Positions 1,220-36,710 of a stretch of 37,184 bases of DNA are shown one piece after another (the first letter of the stretch is position 1; every line of letters begins with the position of its first letter). The translations under genes were made by a program, and so were the position numbers. Origin of the DNA: Peptococcaceae bacterium BRH_c4a (lineage in GTDB: Bacteria; Bacillota; Desulfotomaculia; Desulfotomaculales; Desulfocucumaceae). The stretch covers positions 1-37,184 of the forward strand of contig LADN01000057.1 of NCBI GenBank assembly GCA_000961585.1, in the 5' to 3' direction. Under the pieces are notes generated by a model, which saw only the letters and a program-made list of their open reading frames with translations, did no database searches and was not told the DNA's origin.

Positions 1220-2197
1220 CTACTCCGCAAAAAAATGCTTTACTGCCTGAAAAATATCACTTTTGTCAGGAAAGTACGCCTTCTCCAAGGACGTGCCGGC
1301 CGGCACCGGGGCGTCTGGCAGGGTGACAAACTGAACGGGGTTTTTCAGGATATTGAACGTTCTTGAATAAACTGCCGCCGCCACGTGCTCGGAAAAACCG
1401 CAACAGGGCCAGTCCGGATCAGCAACCACCAGCCTGCCGGTTTTCTTTACTGAATTCACAATAAGGTCAATATCCAGCGGTTTAAGTGTCCGCGGGTCGA
1501 TAACCTCAACGCTGATTCTCTCAGATGCCAGTATATCTGCAGCTTTCATAGCCTCCCTGACCAGGTAGGACACCGCCACTACGGTTACATCGGAACCTTC
1601 CCTGCATACCCGCCCCTTGCCCAGGGGCACCTCGTATATCTCATCCGGCACTTCTTCTTCGAGTGTATACAGCCAGCGGTCGTCAATATACAAGACCGGG
1701 TTATCATCACGGACGGCGGCCACCAGCAACCCCTTGGCGTCGTATGGGGAGGCCGGACATACTACCTTCAGGCCCGGAACATGGACGTACATCGCAAAGG
1801 GACTCTGGGAATGCTGGGCGGCCTGCTCATTGCCCCGGTTTATGATTCCCCGGATGGTCACGGGGACATTAACCCGGCCTCCAAACATGTAGTACCAGTG
1901 GGCGCAGTGGTTGATAATCTGGTCCATGGCCAGGTACATAAAGTCCATCCGCGGGTGGAAAACAATGGGACGCATGCCTGCCATGGCGGCGCCGATGGCG
2001 GCGCCGGTCACCCCGGCCTCGGAGATTGGCGTATCAATCACTCTCTCGGAGCCAAACCTGGCCACCAACCCCAGAGTAGTAGTACCAACACACCAGGGGC
2101 TTTCCACCCCCTGGCCGATTACAAAGACCCTCTCATCTGAGGCCAATAACTGCTCGTGGGCCTCATTGACGGCTTTCGCGTAACTCTTAATCGTCAT
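1220..2197 (-). CDS. Thiamine-diphosphate-dependent dehydrogenase/transferase E1 component, beta subunit
   Basis: A transketolase-like pyrimidine-binding domain (about residues 1-170) is followed by a transketolase C-terminal domain (about 190-320), matching pyruvate/acetoin/branched-chain dehydrogenase E1 beta in order and length (about 325 aa). The segments VIDTPISEAGVTGAAIGAA and HSQSPFAMYVHVPGLKVV are the typical E1 beta core. ATG at 2197 is preferred over ATG at 2221 because GGGAGGGG precedes 2197 at good spacing; the gene then overlaps the alpha subunit by 11 nt, implying translational coupling. No E2 acyltransferase or E3 gene is nearby. In a polysaccharide locus the alpha/beta pair may transfer a two-carbon unit to a keto-sugar, as proposed for AviB1/AviB2 in avilamycin; that role is inference. 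Confidence 0.9.
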   Translation of the reverse strand: MTIKSYAKAVNEAHEQLLASDERVFVIGQGVESPWCVGTTTLGLVARFGSERVIDTPISEAGVTGAAIGAAMAGMRPIVFHPRMDFMYLAMDQIINHCAHWYYMFGGRVNVPVTIRGIINRGNEQAAQHSQSPFAMYVHVPGLKVVCPASPYDAKGLLVAAVRDDNPVLYIDDRWLYTLEEEVPDEIYEVPLGKGRVCREGSDVTVVAVSYLVREAMKAADILASERISVEVIDPRTLKPLDIDLIVNSVKKTGRLVVADPDWPCCGFSEHVAAAVYSRTFNILKNPVQFVTLPDAPVPAGTSLEKAYFPDKSDIFQAVKHFFAE

Positions 2198-3218
2198 TAG
2201 ATGCCCCTCCCTTAAAGACATACCTGGTTAAATCCGCCGGATCCGGAAAGGGGCTGGACACTGCAAATGAAACCGCCTCTTCTATTTCAAAGGAAACCCC
2301 TCTCTGCATTTCCTCCACATCATTTTTAGACAAAATTCCAATGGAGACCAGGAAACCGGCAAAATGCTTAATGGGGCAACGAGCCACCCAGGCATCCAGC
2401 TCGTCCTGGTTGCGCAAGCCCAAATCCACATCATAATTGGGACCCACGTGTCCACGCCACCGGTAGGTACGGCACTCAATAAAACTGGGGCCGTATCCCT
2501 CCCGCGCCCTGTTGACGGCGTCCCTGGCAGCATAATAGACATCCGGCACATTATTGCCGTCCACAACAACAGACTCCAACCCGTGCTCTTTTGCAACACG
2601 GTGAAGGTTGTCATGTACCCTTCTCTTGTCCAAAGCCATGTGTGTGCAGTAGAGATTGTTTTCACAGATAAAAATGACCGGGAGCCTCTTCAGCGCAGCG
2701 AGATTGGCGGATTCATGCCATATTCCCTCTTCCGGAACGCCGTCGCCGTGGAACACCGCCGTCACCCGCCCGGTTCCCCGGATGGACTCGGCCAGCGCCG
2801 TGCCGACGGCTATCGGCAGACTGCCAGCCACGATGGAAGATGTTCCCAGGATACCCACCTCCGGCGCCACCAGGTGCATTGAACCTCCCCGCCCTTTGGA
2901 ACATCCCGTTGCCCTCCCAAACATCTCCGCCATGGCAGCCTTCAAATCCCCGCCCTTGGCGATGTAATGACCATGGGAACGGTGTGTTCCGAAGAGATAG
3001 TCATCCTTTCTCAGCGCATGACACACACCGGAGGCTACCGCCTCCTGGCCGGTATAGAGATGACACGGTGTAATAATTTTCTTTTCTATGACCAGTTCGG
3101 CAACCCGCTCTTCAAATTCCCGGATTCGCATCATGGTCAGCAAAAGCCATTTCAATTTACTGTCATCTATCCTATTAATACGGAACTCGGGCGGCGGAGG
3201 GCAAAGACAATTATTCAT
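2187..3218 (-). CDS. Thiamine-diphosphate-dependent dehydrogenase/transferase E1 component, alpha subunit
   Basis: At 343 aa this matches the E1 alpha family (pyruvate, acetoin or 2-oxoisovalerate dehydrogenase). The thiamine-diphosphate motif is complete: GDG at about 158-160 followed by ENN at about 186-188. THRSHGHYIAKGG (78-90) and GRGGSMHL (about 109-116), typical of the active-site channel, are also present. AGGTGG stands 4 nt before the ATG. The gene lies 32 bp downstream of the class I aminotransferase gene and its stop overlaps the beta-subunit start. The acceptor is unknown; the lack of E2/E3 argues against ordinary oxidative decarboxylation. The coding sequence is more GC-rich than the central cluster. 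Confidence 0.9.
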   Translation of the reverse strand: MNNCLCPPPPEFRINRIDDSKLKWLLLTMMRIREFEERVAELVIEKKIITPCHLYTGQEAVASGVCHALRKDDYLFGTHRSHGHYIAKGGDLKAAMAEMFGRATGCSKGRGGSMHLVAPEVGILGTSSIVAGSLPIAVGTALAESIRGTGRVTAVFHGDGVPEEGIWHESANLAALKRLPVIFICENNLYCTHMALDKRRVHDNLHRVAKEHGLESVVVDGNNVPDVYYAARDAVNRAREGYGPSFIECRTYRWRGHVGPNYDVDLGLRNQDELDAWVARCPIKHFAGFLVSIGILSKNDVEEMQRGVSFEIEEAVSFAVSSPFPDPADLTRYVFKGGASNDD

Positions 3219-5570: not shown

Positions 5571-6239
5571 TTACATTCCATATTTTTCGTCAGCGCCGAA
5601 TCCCGGTGTCCCGGGAACACCCACCGGCCCCCCGCCCAGGCGGGTGGAAACAATTGTCAGCAGGGTGGCGCAAATGATTTTAACATCAATCCACAAGTTA
5701 TGTTCACGGACATATTTAAGCTGGAGCCGCAACTTCTCGGGCCGGATCAGCCTGGCGTAGGCCTCGTCGGCGTCATCAATCCCGGAGGCCTCAATTATTT
5801 CCCCCTCATTGTGAAACTTTATGGAAGCCCAGTCCGTGATGCCGGGGCGCAGAGTAAGTATTGCCTTTTCCTCCTCGGTGTACATGTCCACGAATTTCTG
5901 CACTTCCGGCCGGGGACCCACAATGCTCATGTCTCCCATAAGCACATTAATTAACTGGGAAAATTCATCCAGCTTAAATTTGCGGATAAAACGCCCGCAC
6001 CTGGTAACGCGCATGTCCGATGCGCCTGTTGACGACGCCCCCAGCCGTTCGGCATCCTGCACCATGCTGCGGAACTTGAAGATTTTAAATGGCTTCCCGT
6101 GTCGGCCCACTCTGACGCCCCGGTAAAAAACCGGGCCCTTGGACTCCAGCTTTATTGCCAGAGCAAGAACCAAAAAAAGAGGACTAAAAATAACCAGACC
6201 CAGAAGAGAAAATACAATATCAAACAAATGTTTCATCAT
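5571..6239 (-). CDS. Initiating bacterial sugar transferase (small phosphoglycosyltransferase, PglC/WbaP-like)
   Basis: A 222-aa monotopic phosphoglycosyltransferase. An N-terminal hydrophobic re-entrant helix (about 5-30) precedes GPVFYRGVRVGRHGKPFKIFKFRSM, the catalytic DE in KLDEFSQLINVLMGDMSIVGPRPE (about 95-120) and RPGITDWA. It moves a sugar-1-phosphate onto undecaprenyl phosphate at the inner face of the membrane, the first step of repeat-unit assembly. The C-terminal tail is Gly/Pro-rich (GGGPVGVPGTPGFG), a low-complexity ending. GGGAGG lies about 15 nt before ATG 6239, farther than ideal, so the exact start (6239 or 6236) is uncertain. The 184 bp upstream (6240-6423) carries no gene I can recognise. 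Confidence 0.93.
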   Translation of the reverse strand: MMKHLFDIVFSLLGLVIFSPLFLVLALAIKLESKGPVFYRGVRVGRHGKPFKIFKFRSMVQDAERLGASSTGASDMRVTRCGRFIRKFKLDEFSQLINVLMGDMSIVGPRPEVQKFVDMYTEEEKAILTLRPGITDWASIKFHNEGEIIEASGIDDADEAYARLIRPEKLRLQLKYVREHNLWIDVKIICATLLTIVSTRLGGGPVGVPGTPGFGADEKYGM

Positions 6240-6423: not shown

Positions 6424-7911
6424 CTATCTGACAACCTTCTTTAAAAGTAATACACTTCTCCTTCTCTTTACTGCACTAACGATATGTAATAACATGATAA
6501 ATAATGAACCCTGCAGTAATGTCCTGCAAACAACATCCATGAAAAAATCAAAGCCAAAACTTATAAAGTTCCAGTATGCTGCGTATATACATAAAAACAT
6601 TAAAAATATCCTGTATTTGGAATTCCAGTTGGCAAATACATTATACATGGCTGTCACTGTTAGCATAAAAAAGAACATCCCCAGCAGCCCACCAAATGCA
6701 CCAAATAACGCATAATACAGCCCCCACATTGTGAATATGTAGGTTGTGTATACCCCATAATCCAAATAAAGGCTTTCATCCATTGAGCCGTATACAATGA
6801 CATATGATTGGGATGTAAGCGGAACCCTGAATGGTTTCCCCGGCAGCACCAAGTTCATGAAGGATTTAATTTCGTTAGTCAAATTGATATATTTATCAAC
6901 ATTAATACCTTTTTCATTAATTATGTTAATAAGCGGGTCAATACCCTGCAGTCTGTGGAGGGGTGTCAGCACGTCTAGATAAGAAAACCGGTCCTTTTCC
7001 CCCAGGTTTTCATAAATAGATTCAAATGTTATCTCCTGGTCAATGGTATCCATCCAGTTCTGCCGCAGCTGTTTGGCTACATTAAATGACAGGACAGCCA
7101 AAATAAACAGTGGCAGCATTATCATTGTTATTTTTTTTACGTTAACCTTAAAATCCCTTTCCCTGCTGAGTTTATAAAAAAGCCAGAATAACACAGGGTA
7201 ATAAATTCCAGCCTTACTGGAAATAATAACCCTCATTAAAACATAACCTATAATCGCAAACATAGAAAGCATTTTAATTTTGGGACTGAGATGGGACCAC
7301 CGCTCCAAAACAACAACTAAAAAAAACATCAAAAATATATCAGTATCAGTCAGTGTATAAATCACTTTCATCATGGTTGGCATGTTCATGACATCTATTC
7401 CATGCCTTGACAGACCCATTACCATGTAGGTGTATATTACATTAATCTCTGCCAGAAGCAGCACACCGGATATAAATACAAGGGGTTGGCTAAAAAGATA
7501 ATTTCTTTCGGAATCATTATCGATCAGGGTAGTCCTCCTCAGCGGGAATATCCTGTTGCCAACAAACAGCCCAGCAACGGAAAAGATAATCCCCAAGCAC
7601 AGGTATATAAGAGCCATGTTCATATCATCAGCACTGGCGGGGGTAAACTGGTCGTACAATCTTTCGGGCTCCATTATCAGGGCTAAAATCCTTAAATTAA
7701 AATACATAAAGGTTATAATGATAAACAGCAAAAGCATAGGGTGCTTATCGGGATAGATAATAAGGATCAATATAAAAATTATGGATACGATTGTCATCAT
7801 AACGACGGAGGAAAAGTTCACCAGCCAGTTGCCCCCGTTATAGGCAAAAAGGCCCCACAGTACGATAAGATACAGAAATATTGATAATATCAAGAGCCTG
7901 GAAATTCTCAT
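6424..7911 (-). CDS. Wzy-like O-antigen/polysaccharide repeat-unit polymerase (polytopic membrane protein)
   Basis: This 495-aa protein is dominated by hydrophobic segments: at least ten candidate membrane helices, with a large loop about residues 275-370 between two halves. That layout is usual for Wzy polymerases, which share little primary sequence. The C-terminus is Arg/Lys-rich. Assignment rests on topology, size and position next to the initiating transferase, plus the presence of a Wzx flippase at 26850-28340 in the same operon; no diagnostic motif is visible. AGGGGG lies 6 nt before the ATG. A ligase or another membrane transferase is possible. Confidence 0.7.
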   Translation of the reverse strand: MRISRLLILSIFLYLIVLWGLFAYNGGNWLVNFSSVVMMTIVSIIFILILIIYPDKHPMLLLFIIITFMYFNLRILALIMEPERLYDQFTPASADDMNMALIYLCLGIIFSVAGLFVGNRIFPLRRTTLIDNDSERNYLFSQPLVFISGVLLLAEINVIYTYMVMGLSRHGIDVMNMPTMMKVIYTLTDTDIFLMFFLVVVLERWSHLSPKIKMLSMFAIIGYVLMRVIISSKAGIYYPVLFWLFYKLSRERDFKVNVKKITMIMLPLFILAVLSFNVAKQLRQNWMDTIDQEITFESIYENLGEKDRFSYLDVLTPLHRLQGIDPLINIINEKGINVDKYINLTNEIKSFMNLVLPGKPFRVPLTSQSYVIVYGSMDESLYLDYGVYTTYIFTMWGLYYALFGAFGGLLGMFFFMLTVTAMYNVFANWNSKYRIFLMFLCIYAAYWNFISFGFDFFMDVVCRTLLQGSLFIMLLHIVSAVKRRRSVLLLKKVVR

Positions 7912-13386: not shown

Positions 13387-14481
13387 TTATCTTGTCCAGG
13401 CTAGCCCCTGCTTTTTAGCAAAGCTAAAATATTCCTCTATTTGTCCTTTGGTGAAGTTGTTCATGTCCTGGTCCCCTTTATAATAAGCTTTATACCACTC
13501 TGCTGTCATTCTGACTGTCTCTTCAAATGACAACACCGCATGCCATTTCAAATAATGTAATGCCTTATCGCAATTAAGCTTAAGCAGTGTGGACTCTTTC
13601 TTTTCGCTGGAAACACCCTGGGGAATAAACCACTCGGCATGGCCCCAGGTTTCTGCAAAAGTCTGGATCAATTCCTCCACGGTTCTAACAACTTCTCCCT
13701 GGGGCCCAAAATTGAAGGGCTCACCGGTTACATCGCATTTTTCTTCCATAAGCCGGGACCCCAGCCACAGGTAACCGCTCAGGGGTTCCAGCACATGCTG
13801 CCAGGGCCTGGTGGAATATGGGCTCCTTATTAGAAGTTTTTCTCCCCTGGATAGTGCCCTGACAAAATCCGGTATAATGCGGTCCACAGCCCAATCACCA
13901 CCGCCAATCACATTCCCCGCCCTGGTGGTAGAAACCCTAGGGGACCTCTCACCGGAAAAAAATGATTTAATATAGGAATTAGATACTATTTCAACACATG
14001 CCTTTGAAGCACTATAGGGGTCTTCCCCTCCCAGGCTGTCTATTTCACGGTAACCCCAGGGCCACTCCACATTATTATAGCATTTGTCACTGGTTATAAT
14101 TACGGCTGCCTGCACACCCGGGGTAGATTTTATGCATTCCATTATGTTGACAGCTCCGCCGATATTGGTATCAAAGGTTATTGCCGGATCTTCATATGAT
14201 TTGCGGACTATAGGCTGGGCGGCCAGATGGAATACTATTTCCGGTTTTGTTTTGTCAAATATTCTTTTCAACCCATCGTAATCCCGGATATCACCGGTTA
14301 GATGGTTTATTTTACTTTCCAGTTTCAAAACCTCAAAGTTGCATGGTTGGGAAGGTATGTATAAAGACAACCCGGTAACTTCAGCACCCAGATGATACAG
14401 CCAGAGGGCCAGCCAAGATCCTTTAAAGCCGGTATGCCCGGTAATAAGAACCCGCCTGTTGTTGTATACATTACTAAACAT
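13387..14481 (-). CDS. rfbG: CDP-glucose 4,6-dehydratase
   Basis: A 364-aa extended SDR. The nucleotide motif is GHTGFKGSWLALWL (about 15-28), diagnostic of the CDP-glucose type; VFHLAAQPIVRKSY, TSDKCYNN, DPYSASKACVE (catalytic Tyr-x3-Lys) and TTRAGNVIGGGDWA follow. It converts CDP-D-glucose to CDP-4-keto-6-deoxy-D-glucose, the branch point for 3,6-dideoxyhexoses, yersiniose-type branched sugars and CDP-linked 6-deoxysugars. The partner cytidylyltransferase rfbF is directly upstream (36 bp). AAGGTG lies 5 nt before the ATG. No RfbH-type 3-dehydrase is present in the window. Confidence 0.96.
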   Translation of the reverse strand: MFSNVYNNRRVLITGHTGFKGSWLALWLYHLGAEVTGLSLYIPSQPCNFEVLKLESKINHLTGDIRDYDGLKRIFDKTKPEIVFHLAAQPIVRKSYEDPAITFDTNIGGAVNIMECIKSTPGVQAAVIITSDKCYNNVEWPWGYREIDSLGGEDPYSASKACVEIVSNSYIKSFFSGERSPRVSTTRAGNVIGGGDWAVDRIIPDFVRALSRGEKLLIRSPYSTRPWQHVLEPLSGYLWLGSRLMEEKCDVTGEPFNFGPQGEVVRTVEELIQTFAETWGHAEWFIPQGVSSEKKESTLLKLNCDKALHYLKWHAVLSFEETVRMTAEWYKAYYKGDQDMNNFTKGQIEEYFSFAKKQGLAWTR

Positions 14482-14517
14482 AATTCACCTTCTTCATGTT
14501 TTGCCATCAAGGAGTTT

Positions 14518-15297
14518 TTAATCTACCCATACTTTCCAGGGAGCTTGTTTATTGACCCACAAACTTTCCAACAACTCCTTGTCCCGCAGGGTATCCATAC
14601 ACTGCCAGAATCCTTCGTGCCTATATACCATCAACTGGCGGTCCTTTACCAGATTCTCAAGAGGTTCCCTTTCCAGGATGGTTGTATCACCGTGCAGGTA
14701 ATCAAAAACCTCTGGTTCAAATACAAAAAATCCCCCATTAATCCAACCTTCACCTGTTTGCGGTTTTTCCTTGAACTCCTCCACGGTGTCCCCGTCAATT
14801 TTCATTCCACCAAACCTTGCCGCTGGCCTCACTGCGGTAACGGTAGCTATCCTACTGTGAGACCTGTGAAATGAAATTAACTTTTTGATATCAACATTGG
14901 CGACACCGTCACCATAGGTGAGCATAAAGGTTTCTTTAAGCCTATGCTGGAGCCTGTGGAGCCTTCCGCCAGTCAGTGAGTTAAGGCCGGTATCAACAAG
15001 ATCAATTTCCCAGTCGCTGATAATGTTATTGGTTACATTGACCTTGCCGGTTTTTAAATTGATGGAAAAATCATTCTGCAAATAATAGTAGTTTAAAAAA
15101 TATTCCTTTATAACCTGTCCTTTATACCCCAGTGCTATTATAAATTGGTTATAGCCGTTAGTAGAGTATATATTCAAAATATGCCAGAGAATCGGTTTCC
15201 CTCCGACTTCTACCATTGGTTTGGGTTTGATTACGGTCTCTTCGCTGAGCCTGGTTCCAAACCCCCCGGCCAAAATTACGGTTTTAATAATTATCAC
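14518..15297 (-). CDS. rfbF: Glucose-1-phosphate cytidylyltransferase
   Basis: A 259-aa nucleotidyltransferase beginning KTVILAGGFGTRLSEET (signature loop), followed by KPKPMVEVGGKPILWHI with the sugar-phosphate-binding lysine. FMLTYGDGVANVD contains the metal-binding Asp, and EGWINGGFFVFEP and GFWQCMDTLRD complete the RfbF pattern. It makes CDP-glucose from CTP and glucose-1-phosphate for rfbG. The annotated start is a GTG at 15297 that overlaps its own GGGG ribosome site; no better in-frame ATG lies near, so the start is uncertain by a few codons. The 78-bp gap upstream holds a 13-bp palindrome. Confidence 0.96.
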   Translation of the reverse strand: MIIIKTVILAGGFGTRLSEETVIKPKPMVEVGGKPILWHILNIYSTNGYNQFIIALGYKGQVIKEYFLNYYYLQNDFSINLKTGKVNVTNNIISDWEIDLVDTGLNSLTGGRLHRLQHRLKETFMLTYGDGVANVDIKKLISFHRSHSRIATVTAVRPAARFGGMKIDGDTVEEFKEKPQTGEGWINGGFFVFEPEVFDYLHGDTTILEREPLENLVKDRQLMVYRHEGFWQCMDTLRDKELLESLWVNKQAPWKVWVD

Positions 15298-22562: not shown

Positions 22563-23255
22563 TTACTTCTTACCCGACAAAATTAACTTAATCATTTCCA
22601 TCTGGTAAGGACAGTCTATAATTATTGACCTTTCGGGGGGCATAACGTAAGGAATGGGGCTCCTGCCGATCAAGTTACTTTGCTCTTTTAAACTACCAAC
22701 ACTGTTAAAAATAATCGCTTCATTAAATTTATATACTGCACGATGATCCGTGCTTCTTGTAGATTTACCATAATCCGCCGGAAATACCGGCTCCAACCTG
22801 CCCTCGTTGTTTACGAACTGGGCAAGTTGGATTGGCGTTTCGAAATTTGTGACAGAAACAACTGCTACCTTTCTTTCATGCTGAGTAAATATTCTATATG
22901 CATCTAATATGTCATTAGTAATTCTCAGAGGGCAGGTAGGCAGCATAATTCCAAGGCAAACTTCGTCCGTCAATTGAAATTTTTGAATTAACTCCTTAAT
23001 AACATCAATTATAAAAGTTGTATCATTTCCCAAATCCTGCGAACGCTCATAAGGCACGGCACCATATTTTTCCGAAACTTTTAAAATCTCGCTGCTATCT
23101 GAGTTAACTATTACTTTTGAAAAAATATCGCTTTGTAATGCTGTCTCTATGGCGTATGCTATAAGTGGCTTTCCATTTATAACAGTAAGGTTCTTATTGT
23201 CTACTCTCTTTGAGCCGCCTCTTGCGGGTATCACACAAAATGTCCTGTTAACCAT
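22563..23255 (-). CDS. Acylneuraminate cytidylyltransferase-family CMP-sugar synthetase
   Basis: A 230-aa NeuA/PseF/LegF-type enzyme. VIPARGGSKRVDNKNL (CTP-binding loop, about 8-23), GKPLIAYAIETAL, VIVNSDSSEI, LPTCPLRITNDI and a C-terminal VDCPYQ-like end (IDCPYQME). It should activate a 2-keto-3-deoxy sugar acid as CMP derivative. In this locus the likely source of such an acid is the NeuB-like synthase at 33562-34437. The ATG directly follows TAA of the methyltransferase gene. A truncated paralogue lies 600 bp upstream. Confidence 0.92.
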   Translation of the reverse strand: MVNRTFCVIPARGGSKRVDNKNLTVINGKPLIAYAIETALQSDIFSKVIVNSDSSEILKVSEKYGAVPYERSQDLGNDTTFIIDVIKELIQKFQLTDEVCLGIMLPTCPLRITNDILDAYRIFTQHERKVAVVSVTNFETPIQLAQFVNNEGRLEPVFPADYGKSTRSTDHRAVYKFNEAIIFNSVGSLKEQSNLIGRSPIPYVMPPERSIIIDCPYQMEMIKLILSGKK

Positions 23256-25017: not shown

Positions 25018-26853
25018 TCATCTGCCTTCTATAGCGTCCATAACCACCCTAAACGCCCTTTCTCCTGATAACTCGTCGTCCAAATGGGTAGCGTAGGATT
25101 TTATAAACTCTCTATCCTCTATGTAAGCAGGATAATCACCAGTTTCCATAAATAAAAGGATACTTTCCAAAAGCATATCTATTGAATAGTGGCACACTGC
25201 TCTTTTAGATAAAAGCCGGTGTTCCTGATCAGAAAACCTCCAATGTTTTAATAAAACGAAAACCGGCAAATATGAGCTGACTGATTCAAGTAAAACAGTA
25301 GAGGGTAAATCCAATATCACCACGTCTGATTTTAATAGTAATTCTTCAAAGCTTGGCTTCACCGTTATGAAGGCTATTCTTTCACTATCTTGGTACGTTT
25401 CGATCCAGGGGGGCTGGTTTCCAGGATGGAGTTTGACCAAAATTTTATTATTAGCCGAAATTCTCCCAAGTATGTCCATAATTTTCATCTGATCGAGGTA
25501 AAAAGTCCTGTCATTAAACCCCGGTATTCCGCAATACCAGTTATTTCCATAGTAACTGGTGGTTGCATAAAGTATTGTCTTTTCCTTTAAAAAAGTTTCT
25601 TTTTTGTCTTTGTTGATCTGCAGTTTATCAATCCGAGAAGAACCCACGGTTATAACCCTGGCTGTAGCCCAGCAATTTTTGTACAATTTTTCTACCTGAT
25701 TGCCAAAAACAAGGGAAATATCGGACGTTATCTGGTCCGTCAACCCAAAGAACTGCGTGGGCTTACCGTTGGAATCACCCACCATACCATGCTGCCACGT
25801 AATCACGGGAATACCGACGTTTCTCACCACCTGGTTAAAAGTGTGCATGGTAGCCCGGGGGGAACCGTAATTGAGTAATGCCTTTACTCTTAATTTTTTT
25901 ATTGTTTTTTCCACCCTCTCAGAAAGAGAGATGAAATTACAAGGAACCTCCCCCAGTAGATATTCAAACCTTTCCCTTAGCAATGGATAGAAATTAATTC
26001 CCTGATAATCGAAATAACTCATAAAGAATTGTCTTATTTCCAATCTCCCCAGCAAACCACTTTTTGCCCCATGCTGCCCCGCATCAGCAAAATCAGCGTC
26101 CAAATAGAAAATCCCATAACCCCTAGCATTCAGCTTTTCCATTATTGATGAAAATTCATTTTGGTCACTGTTTAAAATAATGTTGCCTTTATTACTAAAA
26201 AAATTTAAAGTTGCCAAAAGGCTTCTGTAATTTTTTTTCGAAAAATACCTTAAAAATGTACTTAAAGATATATTCTTCTTGGCGATCTGTTTTAATCTAC
26301 CCAGTGTTTTTACCTTTAGAGAGCCTTCATTTTCAGGAGGTTCCCCGGGAAGAAATACAATATCCCTGTCCCACCCATTAAGGCCCAAAATAAGGCTCCA
26401 CAAATTCTCGTTTTTTGAAAAACAGATACCAAAGGCGCCAAAGGGATAAAAACTGCTTTTATGAATAACCCCCTGCTGGCGGGGGAATTGGCCCAGTACT
26501 TTCTGCAGCATAAATATCCTGCTTTTTATCCCATCAAACAGAATCATCAGGGGGAAAAAATGAAACATAAAAGGTCTTAATTTCTGTTCCTTAAGTTTTA
26601 AATCGCCAGCATGAATAAGATCATCCATTTCCCTGCACAGATTTTCCACCATGGAATGATTTTCGGTGCATAAGGACTCCAGTTCATTGACCTCATAAAA
26701 ATCCTCGGGTATCGAATACTCAACCCCGGATTTTTCCAACTGCCACATGGCTGACGGTCCCAGAGCTATCCAGCAGCCATCACCCATGTTTCTTTTCATT
26801 ATGTCCTCAACCTGCCATCCATGCTCAGCCAAAAAAAGTTTGTCAGCAGTCAA
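25018..26853 (-). CDS. Large GT-B-like surface-carbohydrate transferase, function unknown
   Basis: A 611-aa protein with no membrane helices. The C-terminal half has ALLNYGSPRATMHTFN, VITWQHGMVGDSNGKP, ITVGSSRIDKL, ILVKLHPGNQPPW and VVILDLPSTVLLESVSSYLP. These spacings match GT-B-type CDP-glycerol glycerophosphotransferase/KpsC-S-like enzymes. The first 240 residues are not recognisable. It shares architecture, but little sequence, with the 626-aa protein at 16523-18403. The TTG start overlaps the Wzx stop (TTGA) and has GGAGG 8 nt upstream, so it is coupled to the flippase gene. Predicted role: transfer to the lipid-linked repeat unit. Confidence 0.72.
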   Translation of the reverse strand: MTADKLFLAEHGWQVEDIMKRNMGDGCWIALGPSAMWQLEKSGVEYSIPEDFYEVNELESLCTENHSMVENLCREMDDLIHAGDLKLKEQKLRPFMFHFFPLMILFDGIKSRIFMLQKVLGQFPRQQGVIHKSSFYPFGAFGICFSKNENLWSLILGLNGWDRDIVFLPGEPPENEGSLKVKTLGRLKQIAKKNISLSTFLRYFSKKNYRSLLATLNFFSNKGNIILNSDQNEFSSIMEKLNARGYGIFYLDADFADAGQHGAKSGLLGRLEIRQFFMSYFDYQGINFYPLLRERFEYLLGEVPCNFISLSERVEKTIKKLRVKALLNYGSPRATMHTFNQVVRNVGIPVITWQHGMVGDSNGKPTQFFGLTDQITSDISLVFGNQVEKLYKNCWATARVITVGSSRIDKLQINKDKKETFLKEKTILYATTSYYGNNWYCGIPGFNDRTFYLDQMKIMDILGRISANNKILVKLHPGNQPPWIETYQDSERIAFITVKPSFEELLLKSDVVILDLPSTVLLESVSSYLPVFVLLKHWRFSDQEHRLLSKRAVCHYSIDMLLESILLFMETGDYPAYIEDREFIKSYATHLDDELSGERAFRVVMDAIEGR

Positions 26854-28340
26854 CGCTCTATCCTCCCCTCCCGCAGCCTTTTAGCAAGATATTTTGCTGC
26901 TCCGCTGTTTCTAATACCGAGAATCACCGGCGGAAGGATAAGTATAAGTATCACAACAGATTTTTTTAGGGTGAAAATAATATCCTCGGTCAGGGAACTG
27001 CATAAAAGCTCTTGTTGCCCAAAATATACAAATATGGTTCCCATCCAAAGGGCTATCGGGATACCTTCGGCATAAATGACAAGGGCTCTTTTTCTTCCCA
27101 GCAACTCTTTGCCCAGGGTAAAAACTATATAAGTAAAATTGCAGGCATATGCCGCTACCACAACAAAGGCCACTCCAGCCATTGTTTTTATGCCCATGAT
27201 AAACCACATTACAATAAATAAAACAACCATCATCCCAAGGCTTAAAATGTTAGCCACACCGTAAGAACCCAGCCTCTTTTCGGCCACCCAGATGGTAAAA
27301 AGATTATTGTTTCTCAGGTCGAAGAAATTTGCGGTGAGCAGGATGGCCAGGGGTAGTATACCACCGGCATACAAGGGTATAACCTGCCTGATTAATAAAG
27401 GGGCAGCGGTAATTATACCCCAGTTGATCAGGGGAATAGCGACAAGCAGTTGGAACTGTATGAAATTATAAATGTCCAAGGCTATCTTTTCCCTGTCCTC
27501 TCCTTTGCCGTACTGCTCAAAGGTTCTGGTCATTAAAACGGTTCCAAACCTTATGCTGATATCCGCCCCCTGCACAAAAAAACTGCGGGCCATCATATAA
27601 ATACCAAGGGACTTTATATCCATGAATTTGGTTACCCAGAACATGTCCAGCATCAGGAAGAGACTGATAGGATAGTCTGCTATTTTACAGAAAATACTGT
27701 AGGAAGCCAGCCTTTTAAAGACATTCGCATCCCACATAAATTTTGTCCTTATATCAAAGCGGCGGGCCGAAAAGGTCATCCATGCAGCTTTTATTCCCTC
27801 GGCAAAAATGGCCCCCAGAAAAACCCCCCACAATCCCAGCAGATAGGCACCTATTGGCAACGCTATGGCCAGTATCAGGCTGTTTATGAAAAGCAATCTA
27901 CTTAATGGAATGTAAAGTTGCGCTCCCTGAAAAAAAGTGTTATATGATTCCTGTAATCTTGTAAAATACATCAGTGCCGCAGCCAGAACAATGGCAAAGA
28001 ATTCGGTCTCCGATACATTATTTTTCTTAAAAAGAGCGTAAATTAAGATACCGGCAAATACAACAGTAACCTCTACCAGTGAATATGTCAGGCTTACCGA
28101 CCTGCAGTTCTCCTGGCCCCTGTAATCTCCTTTTCCTTTTAAAATAGGAAGTTCCCTTACCGCCCCCGCCAATATGCCTATGGAAAAGGGAGTGGCGAAA
28201 CTTTTAACCACACCAACCAGATTCCATACTCCCATTATCTCCGGTGGAAGCATCCTTCTTAGAATGAAACCCTGAATGAAGAGTAAAATCTGAGATATTA
28301 AATTGATCCCACTGAAAGCCAGAGCATTTTTTAAGAACAT
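26850..28340 (-). CDS. wzx: Wzx-type lipid-linked oligosaccharide flippase
   Basis: A 496-aa polytopic protein with about 12-14 predicted membrane helices, starting FLKNALAFSGINLISQILLF, the usual opening of the polysaccharide-transport (MOP/MVF) superfamily. GIYMMARSFFVQGADISIRFG and later helix pairs fit Wzx. It would move undecaprenyl-linked repeat units across the cytoplasmic membrane. The TGA overlaps the following GT-B gene. A ribosome site AGGATC lies 7 nt before the ATG. With the Wzy-like gene (6424-7911) and the initiating transferase (5571-6239), it defines a Wzy-dependent pathway. Confidence 0.88.
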   Translation of the reverse strand: MFLKNALAFSGINLISQILLFIQGFILRRMLPPEIMGVWNLVGVVKSFATPFSIGILAGAVRELPILKGKGDYRGQENCRSVSLTYSLVEVTVVFAGILIYALFKKNNVSETEFFAIVLAAALMYFTRLQESYNTFFQGAQLYIPLSRLLFINSLILAIALPIGAYLLGLWGVFLGAIFAEGIKAAWMTFSARRFDIRTKFMWDANVFKRLASYSIFCKIADYPISLFLMLDMFWVTKFMDIKSLGIYMMARSFFVQGADISIRFGTVLMTRTFEQYGKGEDREKIALDIYNFIQFQLLVAIPLINWGIITAAPLLIRQVIPLYAGGILPLAILLTANFFDLRNNNLFTIWVAEKRLGSYGVANILSLGMMVVLFIVMWFIMGIKTMAGVAFVVVAAYACNFTYIVFTLGKELLGRKRALVIYAEGIPIALWMGTIFVYFGQQELLCSSLTEDIIFTLKKSVVILILILPPVILGIRNSGAAKYLAKRLREGRIER

Positions 28341-28355
28341 TTTTAAGATCCTAAC

Positions 28356-29069
28356 TTAAATATTAGTTTGCATATAAACCTCATCATACCATTTGATTAT
28401 TTCGGTGATATGAAACTCATTGTTCCGGGGATAGCAATACTGATATATTGCATTTATAAATTCATATTCCTCAGAAGTGTTGACATCAAGTTTAAGCTCT
28501 GGACGACTGAACTCCAGAGGACATTTTATCGTTCCAACCTTGAACTTGTCCCAGTTTTCATAAATATAACTGTGGGGGTGCTCCCTGTTAGCAGGATCAA
28601 CGGTTACTTTCCACAGTTTTTCCACCGTACCCATGCTGTACACCTCAGCCCCCAGCCCGTCTGGATAACCATTGTCATCAATGTTATGTGTATTTGAGGA
28701 AAAGTCATTACCGGTCTTAAGATGATAATCAATAATCCTGTCTATCTCTGCAGGTTCAATTACCGGGTTATCAGCACATAACCTGACAACAATATCAGCC
28801 TTGAATTTCCTGGCTACCTGGTAGTACCTGTCAACCAAATCATTTTCCGAACCCCTGAATACTTTAATATCCAGTTCGCCGGCAACTTTTAACAATACAT
28901 CATCCTCAGATTTAGTTGTGGTTGCCAGTACAATCTCATCAAGCCTAAGAGACCGTTTTACCCTTTCTACAAATCTGAAAATAAGCGGTTTTCCGGCAAG
29001 GTCGGCCATAGATTTACCGGGTAGTCTTGTTGATCCCATTCTGGCCTGTATAATACCTGCAACTTTCAC
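28356..29069 (-). CDS. SpsF-like cytidylyltransferase / glycosyltransferase-family protein
   Basis: About 237 aa. GIIQARMGSTRLPGKSMADLAG (nucleotide loop), FRGSENDLVDRYYQVA and VVRLCADNPVIEP (metal Asp), then EHPHSYIYEN are the SpsF family marks. The family is related to CMP-sugar synthetases and usually sits next to NeuB-like genes in spore-coat or flagellin glycan loci. GTG 29069 (GTGA overlap with the previous stop, GGGAGG 8 nt away) is preferred to ATG 29075. Together with the preceding genes it likely completes or activates the sugar made by the NeuB-like enzyme. Confidence 0.88.
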   Translation of the reverse strand: MKVAGIIQARMGSTRLPGKSMADLAGKPLIFRFVERVKRSLRLDEIVLATTTKSEDDVLLKVAGELDIKVFRGSENDLVDRYYQVARKFKADIVVRLCADNPVIEPAEIDRIIDYHLKTGNDFSSNTHNIDDNGYPDGLGAEVYSMGTVEKLWKVTVDPANREHPHSYIYENWDKFKVGTIKCPLEFSRPELKLDVNTSEEYEFINAIYQYCYPRNNEFHITEIIKWYDEVYMQTNI

Positions 29070-29899
29070 CAGCATGTCCTCCCACCATCAATAATCAGGG
29101 TAGAGCCAGTCATATATGAAGAAGCTTCAGAAACCAGGAAAAGAACAGCTGACTTGTATTCATCTTTTTCCGCCATTCTTCCGACAGGGATAAGATTTGT
29201 CAGCCTGGAAACGAACTCTTCAGGCTGGCCGGTATAAACACCACCCGGGGCAAGGGTATTGACCCGTATATTTTTATGGGCCCAGTAAGTAGCCAAGTAT
29301 TTTGTAAGACCAATAAGTCCATGTTTGACTACTGAATAAGTTACAGGCTTTACGGGCTGCTCCTCTTCCTTTAAACCGGGTTGTTTGTATAAACGCTGGT
29401 CTGGAGCAATGATGCCCAAGTCTGATGCTATATTTAATATTACGCCTCCACCATGGACAGCCATATAAGTACCAACAATCTGGCTGCATAAAAAAGCTCC
29501 TTTTAGGCCGACGGAAACGTCACTATTCCACTGTTCCAGGCTAAAATTTTCAAATCTGCTCATTATTTGATCATTACTGCCTTTTACTTTCGGATCATTT
29601 GCGGCATTATTAATTAAAATGTCTATACCATTAAATACTGCTGTAACTCTTTCCAAAGCATTTTTTATATCTCCGGGATCGGTTATATCTGTTTGCATTC
29701 CCAGGCAGGGAACCATATATTCATTTTTAATCCGTAAGGACTCCTTTTGGGCAAGCTCCCCGTTAATATCCCAGAGAACCGGTATTCCCCCGGCTTCGGC
29801 TATTGCCTCAGCGTGCTTAATACCTAGCAGGCCAGCGCCGCCGGTAATTATTGCCACCTTTTTATCCAGCCTGAATTTTTCTAAAGAACCTTTAGACAT
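29066..29899 (-). CDS. Short-chain dehydrogenase/reductase (first of two adjacent)
   Basis: A 277-aa classical SDR. AIITGGAGLLGIKHA (NAD(P) loop with an unusual GGAGLLG), LINNAAND, NIASDLGI and the catalytic TYSVVKHGLIGLTK (Tyr-x3-Lys) followed by RVNTLAPGGV. In related loci (for example PtmA of legionaminic-acid clusters) SDRs of this kind act on 3-keto or amino sugars. Its ATG is 2 nt downstream of the previous SDR stop, with AGAGGG inside that gene. Substrate unknown; the neighbouring isomerase suggests a phosphorylated ketose. Confidence 0.9.
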   Translation of the reverse strand: MSKGSLEKFRLDKKVAIITGGAGLLGIKHAEAIAEAGGIPVLWDINGELAQKESLRIKNEYMVPCLGMQTDITDPGDIKNALERVTAVFNGIDILINNAANDPKVKGSNDQIMSRFENFSLEQWNSDVSVGLKGAFLCSQIVGTYMAVHGGGVILNIASDLGIIAPDQRLYKQPGLKEEEQPVKPVTYSVVKHGLIGLTKYLATYWAHKNIRVNTLAPGGVYTGQPEEFVSRLTNLIPVGRMAEKDEYKSAVLFLVSEASSYMTGSTLIIDGGRTCW

Positions 29900-32502: not shown

Positions 32503-33561
32503 TTAATTTTCCTTAAAAAGACTTCTCTCAACGTATTCACAGATCAAATGCCCGATTAAAATATGGGCTTCCTGAATCCTTGGGGTGGATTCCGAAGGAA
32601 CAGCCACACAATAGTCAGTCATTTTATAGATTGTGCTTTCTTTATTGTTTCCGGTCAGCCCTATTGTCGTCATTCCTCTGCTTTTTGCAACTCTAATTGC
32701 CTCCACAATGTTTTTTGAATTTCCACTGGTGGAAATAGCAATTAAAACATCTCCCTCCCTCCCCTTGGCCTCAATTTGCCTTGAAAATACAACATCAAAG
32801 CTGTAATCATTCCCCACCGCAGTAAGAGTGGAGGTGTTTACGGTCAAAGCTTCAGCATCCAGGGCCTTTCTCTCCAAGAAGAACCTGCTTACCAGTTCAG
32901 TGGCGATGTGTTGAGAATCTGCGGCGCTCCCTCCATTGCCGCATATCAGAAGTTTGCCTCCGGCTTTATAGCAGTCCACCAGCACCCCTGCAATCCTGAC
33001 AATTTTTTGATAAAAACCTTCCTGCTTTTCCATGAGGGAAATAACCTTTATGTGATCGCCTATCCTATCTCTCCAAAAAGAAAAGGAATCAGTATCACTG
33101 TTTCTCGTGTTCAGTATAAACCTGGACACCTCTTTTATAACCCCATTACCTTTTACCGCATCTGTAACATGCCTGACTGAATTCTTAACTTCAGTGTCAG
33201 CGTCCGAGGGGGCAAAACTATGATCTAAGTAAGAGAGTAATTCAATATCTTTTTTTGAATCCCCCACAAAACATACATCTGATTCTTTCAGCCCTTCCCG
33301 GGCTGCAATATCCTTAAAATATGCCAGTTTATCTTTACATCCGCTGATGAAAAAATCAGGTGCAAACCTTTTGTTTACATACTTTGAGAAGTTGCTGTTC
33401 TCTCCGGTAATAAATCCTACCCTTATCCCGGACCTTTTCAACTCGAATATTGCATCAATATCATCAAATGTAATCCTTTTTTGCTCTGTGCCTTCGGGAC
33501 CAATATAAACGGATCCATCTGTCAAAACCCCGTCGATGTCAAAAAAAACAACATCTATCAT
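32503..33561 (-). CDS. KdsC-GmhA fusion: HAD sugar-phosphate phosphatase joined to a SIS-type isomerase
   Basis: One frame of 352 aa with two catalytic domains. Residues about 1-150 form a KdsC-like HAD: VFFDIDGVLTDGSVYI (motif I), FITGENSNFS (motif II) and CFVGDSKKDIELL (motif IV). Residues about 165-350 form a GmhA/DiaA-type SIS domain: LLICGNGGSAADSQHIATEL, LIAISTSGNSKNIVEAI and RIQEAHILIGHLICE. KdsC dephosphorylates Kdo-8-phosphate and GmhA isomerises sedoheptulose-7-phosphate, so a combined enzyme would isomerise and then dephosphorylate a sugar phosphate, or work on both sides of the NeuB-like condensation. TAAATG joins it to the previous stop. Confidence 0.88.
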   Translation of the reverse strand: MIDVVFFDIDGVLTDGSVYIGPEGTEQKRITFDDIDAIFELKRSGIRVGFITGENSNFSKYVNKRFAPDFFISGCKDKLAYFKDIAAREGLKESDVCFVGDSKKDIELLSYLDHSFAPSDADTEVKNSVRHVTDAVKGNGVIKEVSRFILNTRNSDTDSFSFWRDRIGDHIKVISLMEKQEGFYQKIVRIAGVLVDCYKAGGKLLICGNGGSAADSQHIATELVSRFFLERKALDAEALTVNTSTLTAVGNDYSFDVVFSRQIEAKGREGDVLIAISTSGNSKNIVEAIRVAKSRGMTTIGLTGNNKESTIYKMTDYCVAVPSESTPRIQEAHILIGHLICEYVERSLFKEN

Positions 33562-34437
33562 TTAGACCCGCCTCAGTTTCTTTATAATGGGCTCCTCACT
33601 TTCATAAATCCTGATAACCCCATCCCCCATGGCCTTTTCCAGCTCACGGATGTCTCTTACCAATCTCTTAACTCCCTGCGGCTCTACTGATGCAGACTGG
33701 TCACTTCCCCACATAGCCCTATCCAGGGTGATATGCCTTTCGATTACGCATGCACCTAAAACCGCCGCTGCAAAGGTGGTGGCAAGTCCTACCTCGTGTC
33801 CGGAATAACCTATCGGAACATTGGGGAACATTTCCTGTAGTGTTTTTATTCCTTTAAGATTCAGTTCTTCCGGCATGCAAGGATAGGTTGAGGTGCAATG
33901 AAGTATAATAAGGCCTTCTGTGCCAATCACTTCTATAGCATTCTTAATTATTTCTATATTACTCATCCCTGTCGAAACAATGATAGGCTTTCCGTATTTC
34001 TTGTGGTGCCTCAAAAGGTTGTCGTCGGTAATTGAAGCTGACGCTATCTTATAGCACGGCGGATTAAACTGCTCAATAAAATCAACCGAACCCTCATCCC
34101 AGCAAGAAGCAAACCAATCAATTCCTTTTTCTTTACAGTACCTGTCTATTTCCAAATACTCATTATAACCGAATTCCAGCCCCCGTTTTAAATCTCCGTT
34201 TGTGGAACCGAAAGGATTTTCTCTCGGCTTTGCCAGTTCCTCGGAAGAGTAAACCACTTCAACAGTACGCTTCTGAAATTTTACTGCATCACAACCACTT
34301 TCTACGGCAGCATCTATCAGCTTTTTTGCTATTTCTATGGAGCCGTTATGATTGATACCGATTTCAGCTATAATATAGATTGGATTGCCTTCACCCACAA
34401 ATTTACCACCGATTTTAACACCTTTTTGTGATTGCAT
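33562..34437 (-). CDS. NeuB-family synthase (sialic-acid/ulosonic-acid condensing enzyme) without SAF domain
   Basis: A 291-aa protein with the complete NeuB TIM barrel: IIAEIGINHNG (about 22-32), VKFQKRTVE, IDWFASCWDE, IASASITDDNL, VSTGMSN, ILHCTSTYPC, PIGYSGHE and ERHITLDRAMWGSDQSASVEP. These give the PEP and metal residues. NeuB proteins are usually about 340-350 aa with a C-terminal antifreeze-like SAF domain; here the frame ends just after the barrel at VIRIYESEEPIIKKLRRV. The next gene starts at once, so the domain has not been lost by frameshift. GGGGGAT precedes the ATG by about 6 nt. It should condense phosphoenolpyruvate with an aldose. Confidence 0.92.
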   Translation of the reverse strand: MQSQKGVKIGGKFVGEGNPIYIIAEIGINHNGSIEIAKKLIDAAVESGCDAVKFQKRTVEVVYSSEELAKPRENPFGSTNGDLKRGLEFGYNEYLEIDRYCKEKGIDWFASCWDEGSVDFIEQFNPPCYKIASASITDDNLLRHHKKYGKPIIVSTGMSNIEIIKNAIEVIGTEGLIILHCTSTYPCMPEELNLKGIKTLQEMFPNVPIGYSGHEVGLATTFAAAVLGACVIERHITLDRAMWGSDQSASVEPQGVKRLVRDIRELEKAMGDGVIRIYESEEPIIKKLRRV

Positions 34438-34488: not shown

Positions 34489-35640
34489 TTATTTATTCCA
34501 TTTAACACCCCTTAATATGGAATTTTTATTAATACAACCCTTATTCCTCTCAACAAGGCATAACAGTTCCTCAACAACTTCATCAGTAAGGTAGTTTGGA
34601 TGCAAACCCATCTCCATCAACCCGGTATATTTAGGATTATAATAGTGATCCTCTGTCTCCACCCTAGGGTTATCATAGTGTTTGATCTCAACACTATAGC
34701 CTGCCTTCTTGCCAACCGCATAAACTTTTTCTGCCAGTTCATTTACCGAGAAAGTTTCGGTGATCTGGTTAAATATCCTTAATTTGCCATGTTCTGGCGG
34801 ATGCATAGCAGAAAGGTAAACACATGCTAGAGAATCCTTAATATTTATATAACCCCTAATCTGTGTACCGGAACCGTATATGGTCAAAGGATGTCCAACT
34901 ACCGCCTGCACAACAAACCTATTTAGGACGGTACCAAATATTTCATCGTAATGGAAATTGGTCATAAGACGGGAATCCTGTTTTCCCTCATCGGTGAATA
35001 TACCATAAACCGGGCCTTGCATAAGATCGGTAACCCTCAGTCCCCATGTTCTCACATAATACCAAAGCATATCGGTGTCCTGAATTTTTGTAGTATGGTA
35101 GAGTGAGCTTGCCTGGCGGGGAAATAGAAACTTTTCAGTTCGGCCTTTATGCTCTATATCAAACCAGCCTTCCTCTATGTCTATATTAGGGGTCCCGTAT
35201 TCTCCCATAGTACCAAGCTTTATGATATGGCACTGAGTATTTACTTCCTTTACCGCATATGCAATATTTAACGTACTTATTAAATTGTTTTGGAGAGTAA
35301 AGGCAGCTTTTTCACGATTGAGCATTGAGTATGGTGCGGATGGCTGTTCAGCATAATGAATTACCACATCTGGCTTATGGTCAATAAATATGCTTTTTAG
35401 AAAATGATAATCCGTTACATCACCTATATATATACCAATTTTATTTCCTGTTAAGCCCTCCCATATCCTAGTGCGTTCCACAAGATTAGGATTTAAAACA
35501 ATGGGTTCACAGTCCAACTCCAAGGCTGTGTACCGCTTGAAATAATTATCAATACCAATAACCTCGTGTCCTTTACTGGAGAAATGCATACATGTGGGCC
35601 AACCCATATAGCCGTCACAGCCCATAACTAATATCCTCAC
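34489..35640 (-). CDS. UDP-sulfoquinovose-synthase-like enzyme (SQD1/Agl3 family)
   Basis: A 383-aa extended SDR closely resembling SQD1 along its length. GCDGYMGW (NAD loop; SQD1 has GGDGYCGW), KLGTMGEYGTPNIDIEEG, QASSLYHTTKIQDT with Tyr-x3-Lys, GHPLTIYGSGTQIRGYINIKD, and NPRVETEDHYYNPKYTGLME. These segments match the chloroplast and archaeal enzymes that join sulfite to UDP-glucose. In Sulfolobus Agl3 serves the S-layer glycan, which makes a surface-glycan role plausible here. GTG 35640 has GGAGG 6 nt upstream and overlaps the preceding stop (GTGA). Sulfite would be available in a sulfate-reducing host, if that guess is right. Confidence 0.83.
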   Translation of the reverse strand: MRILVMGCDGYMGWPTCMHFSSKGHEVIGIDNYFKRYTALELDCEPIVLNPNLVERTRIWEGLTGNKIGIYIGDVTDYHFLKSIFIDHKPDVVIHYAEQPSAPYSMLNREKAAFTLQNNLISTLNIAYAVKEVNTQCHIIKLGTMGEYGTPNIDIEEGWFDIEHKGRTEKFLFPRQASSLYHTTKIQDTDMLWYYVRTWGLRVTDLMQGPVYGIFTDEGKQDSRLMTNFHYDEIFGTVLNRFVVQAVVGHPLTIYGSGTQIRGYINIKDSLACVYLSAMHPPEHGKLRIFNQITETFSVNELAEKVYAVGKKAGYSVEIKHYDNPRVETEDHYYNPKYTGLMEMGLHPNYLTDEVVEELLCLVERNKGCINKNSILRGVKWNK

Positions 35641-36710
35641 ACAGTACCTCCGTAATAGTTTTCTTCAACTCTTTCAATGACTTTGTTTTCAATCAAGTAC
35701 TTCTTCAGTGCTTGTTTGTCCAAGGGAATTTCACTAGCGGAGATATATGATTTTTTTACCTTACCATATACCATGTTTGAATAATCATAATTAATAGATT
35801 CGTAAATTGATTTGAATGCAGGGGTGAGTGCAAACATATCTTCTAATTCAATTGCGCGTTGAACCTCATCCTCTGTCATAAGTTCTTCATATAATTTTTC
35901 CCCGGCCTTAGCACCTGTTTCAATTATTTCAATTTCTTGGGTTTTATAGCCATACCTCGGTGCCAGAATGTCTATCATTGCTTCAGCAAGGTCAGGGATT
36001 TTTACAACGGGCATTTTAGTTATAAAAACCTCTCCTCCTTGCGAAATCACAACTGCTTGCAACACAAGCCTAGATGCCTCTTCAACTGTCATGACAAACC
36101 TAGTCATTCTCTTGTCAGTTAAAGTAACCGGTCCTCCATTTTTGATCTGTCTCATAAAAAGTGGAACAACAGAACCTCTAGACCCCATTACATTACCAAA
36201 CCTTGTACTGCTAAAAACAGTACAACCACCGTTTTTAACCGCATTGGCGGCAGTTATAAGCTTTTCCCCCATAAGTTTTGAGGTTCCCATAACATTTGTA
36301 GGGTTAACAGCCTTATCGCTGCTGGTAAACATAACGCACTTGACCTCACAGGTAGAAGCAGCCTTTATAATATTTTCCACACCTATTATGTTTGTCTGAA
36401 CCACGTCAAAAGGATTATATTCGGAAAGTATAACGTGTTTGAAAGCTGCGCAATGTATGATAACGTCTATCCCGGCAGAGAGCTTTTCGACCTTGCCCTG
36501 GTCTCTTACATCACCAAGAAAACAGCAGATATTTTTGTTTTTATAATACTCCATTAAGAAGAACATTTCCGTTTCATTATTATCCATTAGCCTTAATTCT
36601 TCCGGTTCTAATGTGTTAAGCTGTTTAACTATCTCTTTGCCAACGGTTCCTGCTGCACCAGTTATAAAAATCTTTTTACCAGCAAAATATTTTTTCCAAT
36701 TAACATCCAC
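35637..36710 (-). CDS. Soluble NDP-sugar 4,6-dehydratase of the WbpM/PglF type
   Basis: A 357-aa extended SDR of the FlaA1/CapD family without the N-terminal membrane region seen in full-length WbpM/PglF. IFITGAAGTVGKEIV, VIIHCAAFKHV, SSDKAVNPTNVMGTSKLMGEKL, STRFGNVMGSRGSVVPLF and GGPVTLTDKRMTRF match. The catalytic tyrosine of FlaA1 (nine residues after the motif Asp) is replaced here by Met, as in WbpM/PglF, so C5 configuration should be retained (UDP-2-acetamido-2,6-dideoxy-4-hexulose). GTG 36710 has GGAGG 9 nt upstream. It is the first gene of the operon visible here, directly beside the IS110 end. Confidence 0.9.
   Translation of the reverse strand: MDVNWKKYFAGKKIFITGAAGTVGKEIVKQLNTLEPEELRLMDNNETEMFFLMEYYKNKNICCFLGDVRDQGKVEKLSAGIDVIIHCAAFKHVILSEYNPFDVVQTNIIGVENIIKAASTCEVKCVMFTSSDKAVNPTNVMGTSKLMGEKLITAANAVKNGGCTVFSSTRFGNVMGSRGSVVPLFMRQIKNGGPVTLTDKRMTRFVMTVEEASRLVLQAVVISQGGEVFITKMPVVKIPDLAEAMIDILAPRYGYKTQEIEIIETGAKAGEKLYEELMTEDEVQRAIELEDMFALTPAFKSIYESINYDYSNMVYGKVKKSYISASEIPLDKQALKKYLIENKVIERVEENYYGGTV

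Follow-up and report, generated by a model that had tools for sequence, protein, structure and literature searches.

In a surface-glycan locus on a stretch of DNA of 37,184 nucleotides (the whole stretch analyzed, here called the window), a gene of the SQD1 family of extended SDRs encodes proline at the position of Arg101 in SQD1, it stands on the opposite side of the family tree from SQD1 itself, in a branch known mainly from virus contigs, and it forms a conserved pair with the gene of a CapD-like dehydratase. The enzyme probably makes a modified sugar different from sulfoquinovose. Tentatively, and short of real confidence, we propose that it is a non-canonical enzyme with the SQD1 fold, of the Pro-type (proline at position 101), that belongs to a UDP-HexNAc-type pathway and works together with the CapD/Pen-like dehydratase, rather than a UDP-glucose:sulfite synthase. 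The name UDP-sulfoquinovose synthase is not warranted for the gene before the enzyme has been assayed.

The gene and the locus around it

The sequence-only reading had placed a gene at 34489-35640; the gene is real and the coordinates are right, but the strand is minus. A 383-aa open frame with a GTG start and its stop at 34489 fills the interval on this strand, and 14 stops interrupt the plus strand. A clear Shine-Dalgarno sequence (GGAGG) precedes the GTG start, and the gene overlaps the CapD-like gene upstream of it by 4 bp (GTGA). The earlier proposal that the gene lies within a Wzy-type surface-glycan locus is borne out by the initiating phosphoglycosyl transferase, the Wzx-like and Wzy-like proteins, the dehydratases and the aminotransferases of the window. 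The window is one entire contig, so the locus is truncated on either side. Its main features are:

35637-36710, minus strand: CapD/PseB/Pen-like UDP-GlcNAc 4,6- or 5,6-dehydratase, Met-type TSSDKAVNPTNVMGTSK (Polysacc_synt_2, 322 bits; PseB, 273 bits, under cut-off; best PDB match 6bwc)
34489-35640, minus strand: SQD1-like extended SDR, 383 aa, Pro-type (phmmer to 1qrr/1i24; residue table; AlphaFold model with TM 0.97 to 1qrr)
33562-34437, minus strand: short form of a NeuB/SpsE-like PEP-condensing synthase with 291 aa (Pfam NeuB, 268 bits; best PDB match SpsE, 1vli)
32503-33561, minus strand: KdsC-like HAD phosphatase and GmhA-like SIS (phosphoheptose) isomerase, fused in one protein
28356-29075, minus strand: KdsB/PseF-type cytidylyltransferase (CTP_transf_3, 115 bits)
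26850-28340, minus strand: Wzx-like flippase (Polysacc_synt; 10 TM-like segments)
22563-23255, minus strand: second cytidylyltransferase, PseF-like (TIGR03584, 154 bits, under cut-off; homologs adjoin viral Pro-type genes)
6424-7911, minus strand: protein with 11 TM-like segments and no hit in Pfam or NCBIfam, probably a Wzy-like polymerase
5571-6239, minus strand: initiating phosphoglycosyl transferase, WcaJ/EPS type (Bac_transf, 206 bits; TIGR03025, 231 bits, under cut-off)

The locus also holds further dehydratases, aminotransferases, GT2 transferases and a CDP-glucose branch (TIGR02623 and TIGR02622, both above their cut-offs), while NeuB, the fused KdsC-GmhA protein and the two cytidylyltransferases make up a set of ulosonic-acid type. 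An alpha/beta pair resembling pyruvate dehydrogenase E1 (1220-3218) lies near the CDP-glucose 4,6-dehydratase set (13387-15297), an arrangement that by analogy recalls the synthesis of two-carbon branched sugars, and a YhgA-like transposase (Transposase_31, 2-946) occupies the left contig edge.

As had been stated from the letters alone, no sulfolipid synthase (SQD2/SqdX) is nearby: the 37,184 nucleotides encode no SqdX-like protein. Outside the window the host genome has two unlinked GT4 genes (36-38%). No transferase specific for sulfoquinovose could be identified. The host also has dsrA (582 bits, above cut-off), which makes dissimilatory sulfite metabolism likely, so that sulfite should be available as an intermediate.

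Proline at the position of Arg101

The window protein belongs to the SQD1 family of extended SDRs by full-length likeness in sequence and in fold. It matches SQD1 with 425 bits (phmmer, E 3e-126) over residues 2-383, i.e., its full length, with about 50% identity from end to end, and among solved proteins nothing else scores near it. Its AlphaFold model (pLDDT 88, pTM 0.90) superposes on 1qrr with a TM of 0.97 and an rmsd of 1.5 A. This confirms the strong match along the whole protein that the sequence-only reading had reported, including the conserved segment before Tyr-x3-Lys (FPRQASSLYHTTK in the window protein as against YPKQASSFYHLSK). The signature [ST]MG...Yx3K, which marks the active site of UDP-sulfoquinovose synthase (PMC8987622), is found as T144-M145-G146, Y181 and K185, with TMGEYG at 144-149 and His182 also present. 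With the NCBIfam model for UDP-sulfoquinovose synthase, NF041015, the protein scores 454 bits (E 3e-136) at a cut-off of 575 bits; since relatives linked to sqdX miss the cut-off too (467-496 bits), its miss says little, and the cut-off was dropped as a test.

At the position where SQD1 and Agl3 have Arg101, the window protein has Pro100 (AEQPSAP as against EQRSAP). The change, which had been overlooked in the sequence-only reading, falls inside the otherwise conserved motif EQRSAPYSM, and it removes a residue that is present in SQD1 and in every member of our set linked to a SqdX-like gene. Two further replacements are Met207 for SQD1 Asn208 and Pro210 for Val211, where Met207 matches, by alignment only, the position of the Asn that contacts O6 in GalE. 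Met207 is common to most Pro-type enzymes but not to most of the NeuB-adjacent ones, so the enzyme of the window may differ from the viral ones linked to NeuB.

The significance of Arg101 can be judged from Agl3, for which the mutagenesis primers read A-E-Q-[R101]-S-A-P. The mutants R101A, H95A, M145A, Y182A and K186A are all inactive, and the assay was a sulfite-free 5,6-dehydration, so that R101A is inactive even when no sulfite is to be added (PMC4388408). Catalysis on UDP-Glc thus requires Arg101, whose role is not confined to sulfite. The positions found essential in Agl3 other than Arg101 are kept in the window protein: the equivalents of Agl3 His95, Met145, Glu147, Tyr148, Ser180, Tyr182 and Lys186 are conserved or conservatively kept, with the tested Thr185, to which Thr184 of the window protein corresponds, excepted from this set. 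When these residues remain, the SQD1 reaction could survive, either on a different substrate or even on UDP-Glc.

In our alignment the position of SQD1 Arg101 is that of GalE Lys84/85 and WbpP Gly102 (His+5 in the HxAxxX motif). Lys85 of bifidobacterial GalE contacts O2 and O3 of the sugar and is reported to be among three residues on which the choice between Glc and GlcNAc depends; in WbpP-type UDP-GlcNAc enzymes the position is occupied by Gly or Ala (PMC6668579, PMC12820599). The replacement of Arg101 by Pro, at a position that in these homologs belongs to the C2/C3 part of the sugar pocket, fits a substrate changed at C2, without proving it.

Arg and Pro branches and their gene neighbors

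Homologs were collected from the class of the window (113 genomes), from its phylum (398 sampled genomes), from plasmids and from viral contigs; beyond the phylum, the only source besides plasmids and virus contigs is a single Deltaproteobacterial contig. The viral contigs, which come from IMG/VR and may include non-viral pieces, were scanned with the patterns KLGTMGE and YGTPNID, and residue 101 is part of neither. Their homologs, counted with some near-copies among the loci, have Pro in 78 cases out of 80 and Arg in two (L058 and L061). In the window's phylum, most cellular homologs have Arg. A single contig scan with the lone SQD1-like protein as query gave two loci only. There was no close match among 50,697 isolate phage records, nor does BFVD contain a close structural homolog, so that the viral members are known here only from metagenomic contigs.

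In a careful tree of 49 members one branch parts all Arg from all Pro members (support 100/95, present in 200 of 200 bootstrap trees), and a quick tree of 83 members agrees. The Arg side holds SQD1 and all genes that adjoin a SqdX-like GT4, and the window protein falls on the Pro side, in a subclade of nine members (100/99). The Agl3 sequence was left out of the tree, and its root was not established, so that neither state is claimed to be the older. To our knowledge, no member of the Pro-type branch has been assayed or otherwise characterized.

Some members of the family are unusual in other respects. A haloarchaeal homolog from Haladaptatus (L040, 6001-7167) and a divergent one (L027, 3364-4581) combine Pro at 101 with TTTG where other members have TMGEYG, and going by these residues the annotation of halophile proteins as UDP-sulfoquinovose synthase looks doubtful as well. 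On three viral contigs (L032, L033 and L034, 7137-9278) two intein-like insertions split the SQD1-like gene; as read on L032, the first lies just before TMGEYG and the other after the YDVDE segment.

Consider now the neighbors of the two types. A GT4 gene adjoins each of the Arg-type genes L010, L011, L022 and L023. Among themselves these GT4s share 48-61% identity, and their closest NCBIfam models, in a comparison that did not include SqdX itself, are lipid glycosyltransferases, all under cut-off; such neighbors appear to match a sulfolipid pathway. The genome G036 holds both types, with its Arg copy beside a GT4 of glycolipid type and its Pro copy, 63% identical to the window protein, directly downstream of a CapD-like gene, as in the window. 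The CapD-like proteins of the window and G036 are 57% identical. A close CapD-like gene (E <= 1e-90) occurs in 2 of the 113 genomes of the class, a close Pro-type gene occurs in the same two only, and the genes are adjacent in both carriers, a coincidence with a chance probability of about 1.6e-4 for two genomes and for thresholds that were chosen afterwards. At the 49 viral loci that hold a relative of the CapD-like gene, no neighbor is SQD1-like. The two enzymes of the pair may also work on different sugars.

On viral contigs, a NeuB-like gene lies near 11-12 of the Pro-type loci, often overlapping or a few bases apart, a cytidylyltransferase near six, and a UDP-GlcNAc 2-epimerase near several. 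In one of them (L042) the genes of the SQD1-like protein, NeuB and NeuC form an overlapping three-gene operon, where NeuC scores above the curated cut-off of the sialic-acid-pathway model (266 bits as against 235.9), and the presence of NeuC and NeuB makes UDP-GlcNAc the likely starting sugar. In the window, too, NeuB follows the SQD1-like gene, but outside the window its nine-member subclade is not NeuB-linked, and in nine of the 113 class genomes NeuB occurs without following a Pro-type gene, which weakens NeuB as a fixed partner of the window enzyme. The NeuB of the window goes with a KdsC/KdsB-like set, which possibly needs no UDP-sugar, and it is for these reasons not claimed that the window enzyme feeds NeuB.

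Genes of phage replication (dCMP deaminase, ribonucleotide reductase, nucleases) surround many of the deeper viral Pro-type members; at L074-L118, many adjoin dCMP deaminase and other genes of phage DNA metabolism. Another recurrent viral cassette (L028, L044, L047-L053, L055, L057, L062 and L064) consists of a methyltransferase, two proteins mostly without Pfam match, one of them weakly GT2-like, and the Pro-type SQD1-like gene.

Proposed function, alternatives and known systems

In the cycle of the SQD1 family, NAD oxidizes C4, a 5,6-elimination and the addition of sulfite follow, and C4 is reduced; when there is no sulfite, the 5,6-ene is released (PMC4388408, PMC8987622). The Pro-type enzyme, presumably NAD-dependent, keeps the machinery of C4 oxidation (TMG, Tyr-x3-Lys), probably in a rebuilt sugar pocket, and, with the translationally coupled CapD/Pen-like dehydratase, would act on a sugar derived from UDP-GlcNAc, its own substrate being either the substrate or the product of the dehydratase. 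C4 would be oxidized, C5/C6 would be altered via an enol or 5,6-ene intermediate and C4 would be reduced again, and the product would be a rare UDP-amino-sugar for the surface polysaccharide. We infer the UDP-HexNAc substrate, this order of steps and the independence of sulfite. A reading without sulfite is ranked first because the basic residue essential in Agl3 is missing and no sulfite-supply gene recurs, while dsrA in the host keeps a sulfonate reading open; a sulfonated product is possible, in which case an amino sugar is more likely than sulfoquinovose.

A specific form of the proposed function, rather unlikely when taken in this narrow sense, is that of a Pal- or CapF-like second enzyme, which oxidizes, reduces or epimerizes the product of the CapD-like enzyme (a 4-keto-6-deoxy or 5,6-ene UDP-HexNAc) and makes no C-S bond. 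The 4-bp overlap and the conserved pairing with the CapD-like gene are consistent with this, and so is the best PDB match of the CapD-like protein (6bwc, 281 bits), which is Pen (PMC8987622); the enzyme that works with Pen, Pal, is an SDR with the 5,6-ene as its substrate (PMC5109656). Met at the O6-contact position would suit a 6-deoxy substrate. However, the Tyr that Pen has in YxxxK is Met in the dehydratase of the window, and Pal itself (6bwl) is so distant from the window protein (phmmer E 0.1; fold TM 0.67 at 20% identity) that orthology was rejected and the enzyme would have to be a non-orthologous replacement.

Similarly unlikely is the function named in the sequence-only reading, i.e., that of a genuine UDP-sulfoquinovose synthase, like SQD1 or Agl3, which supplies sulfoquinovose to the surface polysaccharide. 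The family part of this claim stands, with about 50% full-length identity to SQD1 and with TMGEYG and YxxxK intact, dsrA suggests that sulfite should be a metabolic intermediate in the host, and Agl3 is a precedent for a role in glycans (PMC4388408). The functional part is opposed by Pro at the position where R101A kills Agl3, by a place in the tree outside the Arg clade of SQD1 and the SqdX-linked genes, by partner genes that point to UDP-GlcNAc, and by the lack of an identifiable sulfoquinovose-specific transferase.

Less probable still is the addition of sulfite to a UDP-GlcNAc-type sugar to give 6-deoxy-6-sulfo-GlcNAc, from which the viral NeuB/NeuC cassettes could make a 9-sulfonated analogue of sialic acid. 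The SQD1 chemistry ends with C4 reduced, so that NeuC and NeuB could use its product without further conversion; the L042 operon consists of exactly the required three genes and has no aminotransferase, unlike the legionaminic and pseudaminic routes; and the host of the window has dsrA. Against this, Arg101, a possible anion ligand, is gone, and no sulfite-generating gene recurs beside the viral Pro-type genes: a motif search found no PAPS-reductase-like PP-loop motifs near them, and a Pfam scan of 96 neighbors found one PAPS_reduct domain. We know of no sugar of the 6-deoxy-6-sulfo-GlcNAc type in a surface glycan, and the only loose parallel found in the literature on sulfonated bacterial capsules is the sulfonated flagellin glycan of C. 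difficile. Least probable is the general form, in which Pro-type relatives of SQD1, common on virus contigs and found here in a bacterium with dsrA, would add a sulfonate to UDP-GlcNAc-type sugars. The products would be sulfonated amino sugars and, with NeuB and NeuC, C9-sulfonated sialic acids.

SQD1 homologs in bacteria and viral metagenomes are named UDP-sulfoquinovose synthase by similarity, and one residue, backed by mutagenesis and by the tree, parts the known and sulfolipid-linked branch from a large Pro branch. The auxiliary genes on viral contigs described as UDP-sulfoquinovose synthase (for example in PMC7785012) may or may not be of the Pro type. If Pro-type enzymes make no sulfoquinovose, many annotations and the role in sulfonate cycling inferred for viruses will have to be revised; if other sugars are what they sulfonate, a class of sulfonated surface glycans has yet to be described.

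Among known systems, Arabidopsis SQD1 (1qrr, 1i24, 1i2b) shares with the window protein the fold, about half of the residues, TMGEYG, Tyr-x3-Lys, Ser180 and His183, but Arg101, Asn208 and Val211 of SQD1 are Pro, Met and Pro in the window protein, which belongs to a separate clade and has no sulfolipid context. Agl3, which serves the S-layer N-glycan of Sulfolobus acidocaldarius, resembles it as a SQD1-family enzyme in a surface-glycan setting, but has and needs the Arg101 for which the window protein has Pro (PMC4388408). The sqdB/sqdX-type genes at L010, L011, L022 and L023 are of the same SDR family, at 45-51% identity, and they have both Arg101 and an adjoining glycolipid-type GT4, whereas the window gene lacks both. 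With Pen and Pal of pseudaminic acid synthesis in Bacillus thuringiensis, finally, the window shares the adjacency of a CapD-like dehydratase and an extended SDR, but its second enzyme is SQD1-like rather than a homolog of Pal, and its dehydratase has Met instead of Tyr in the dyad.
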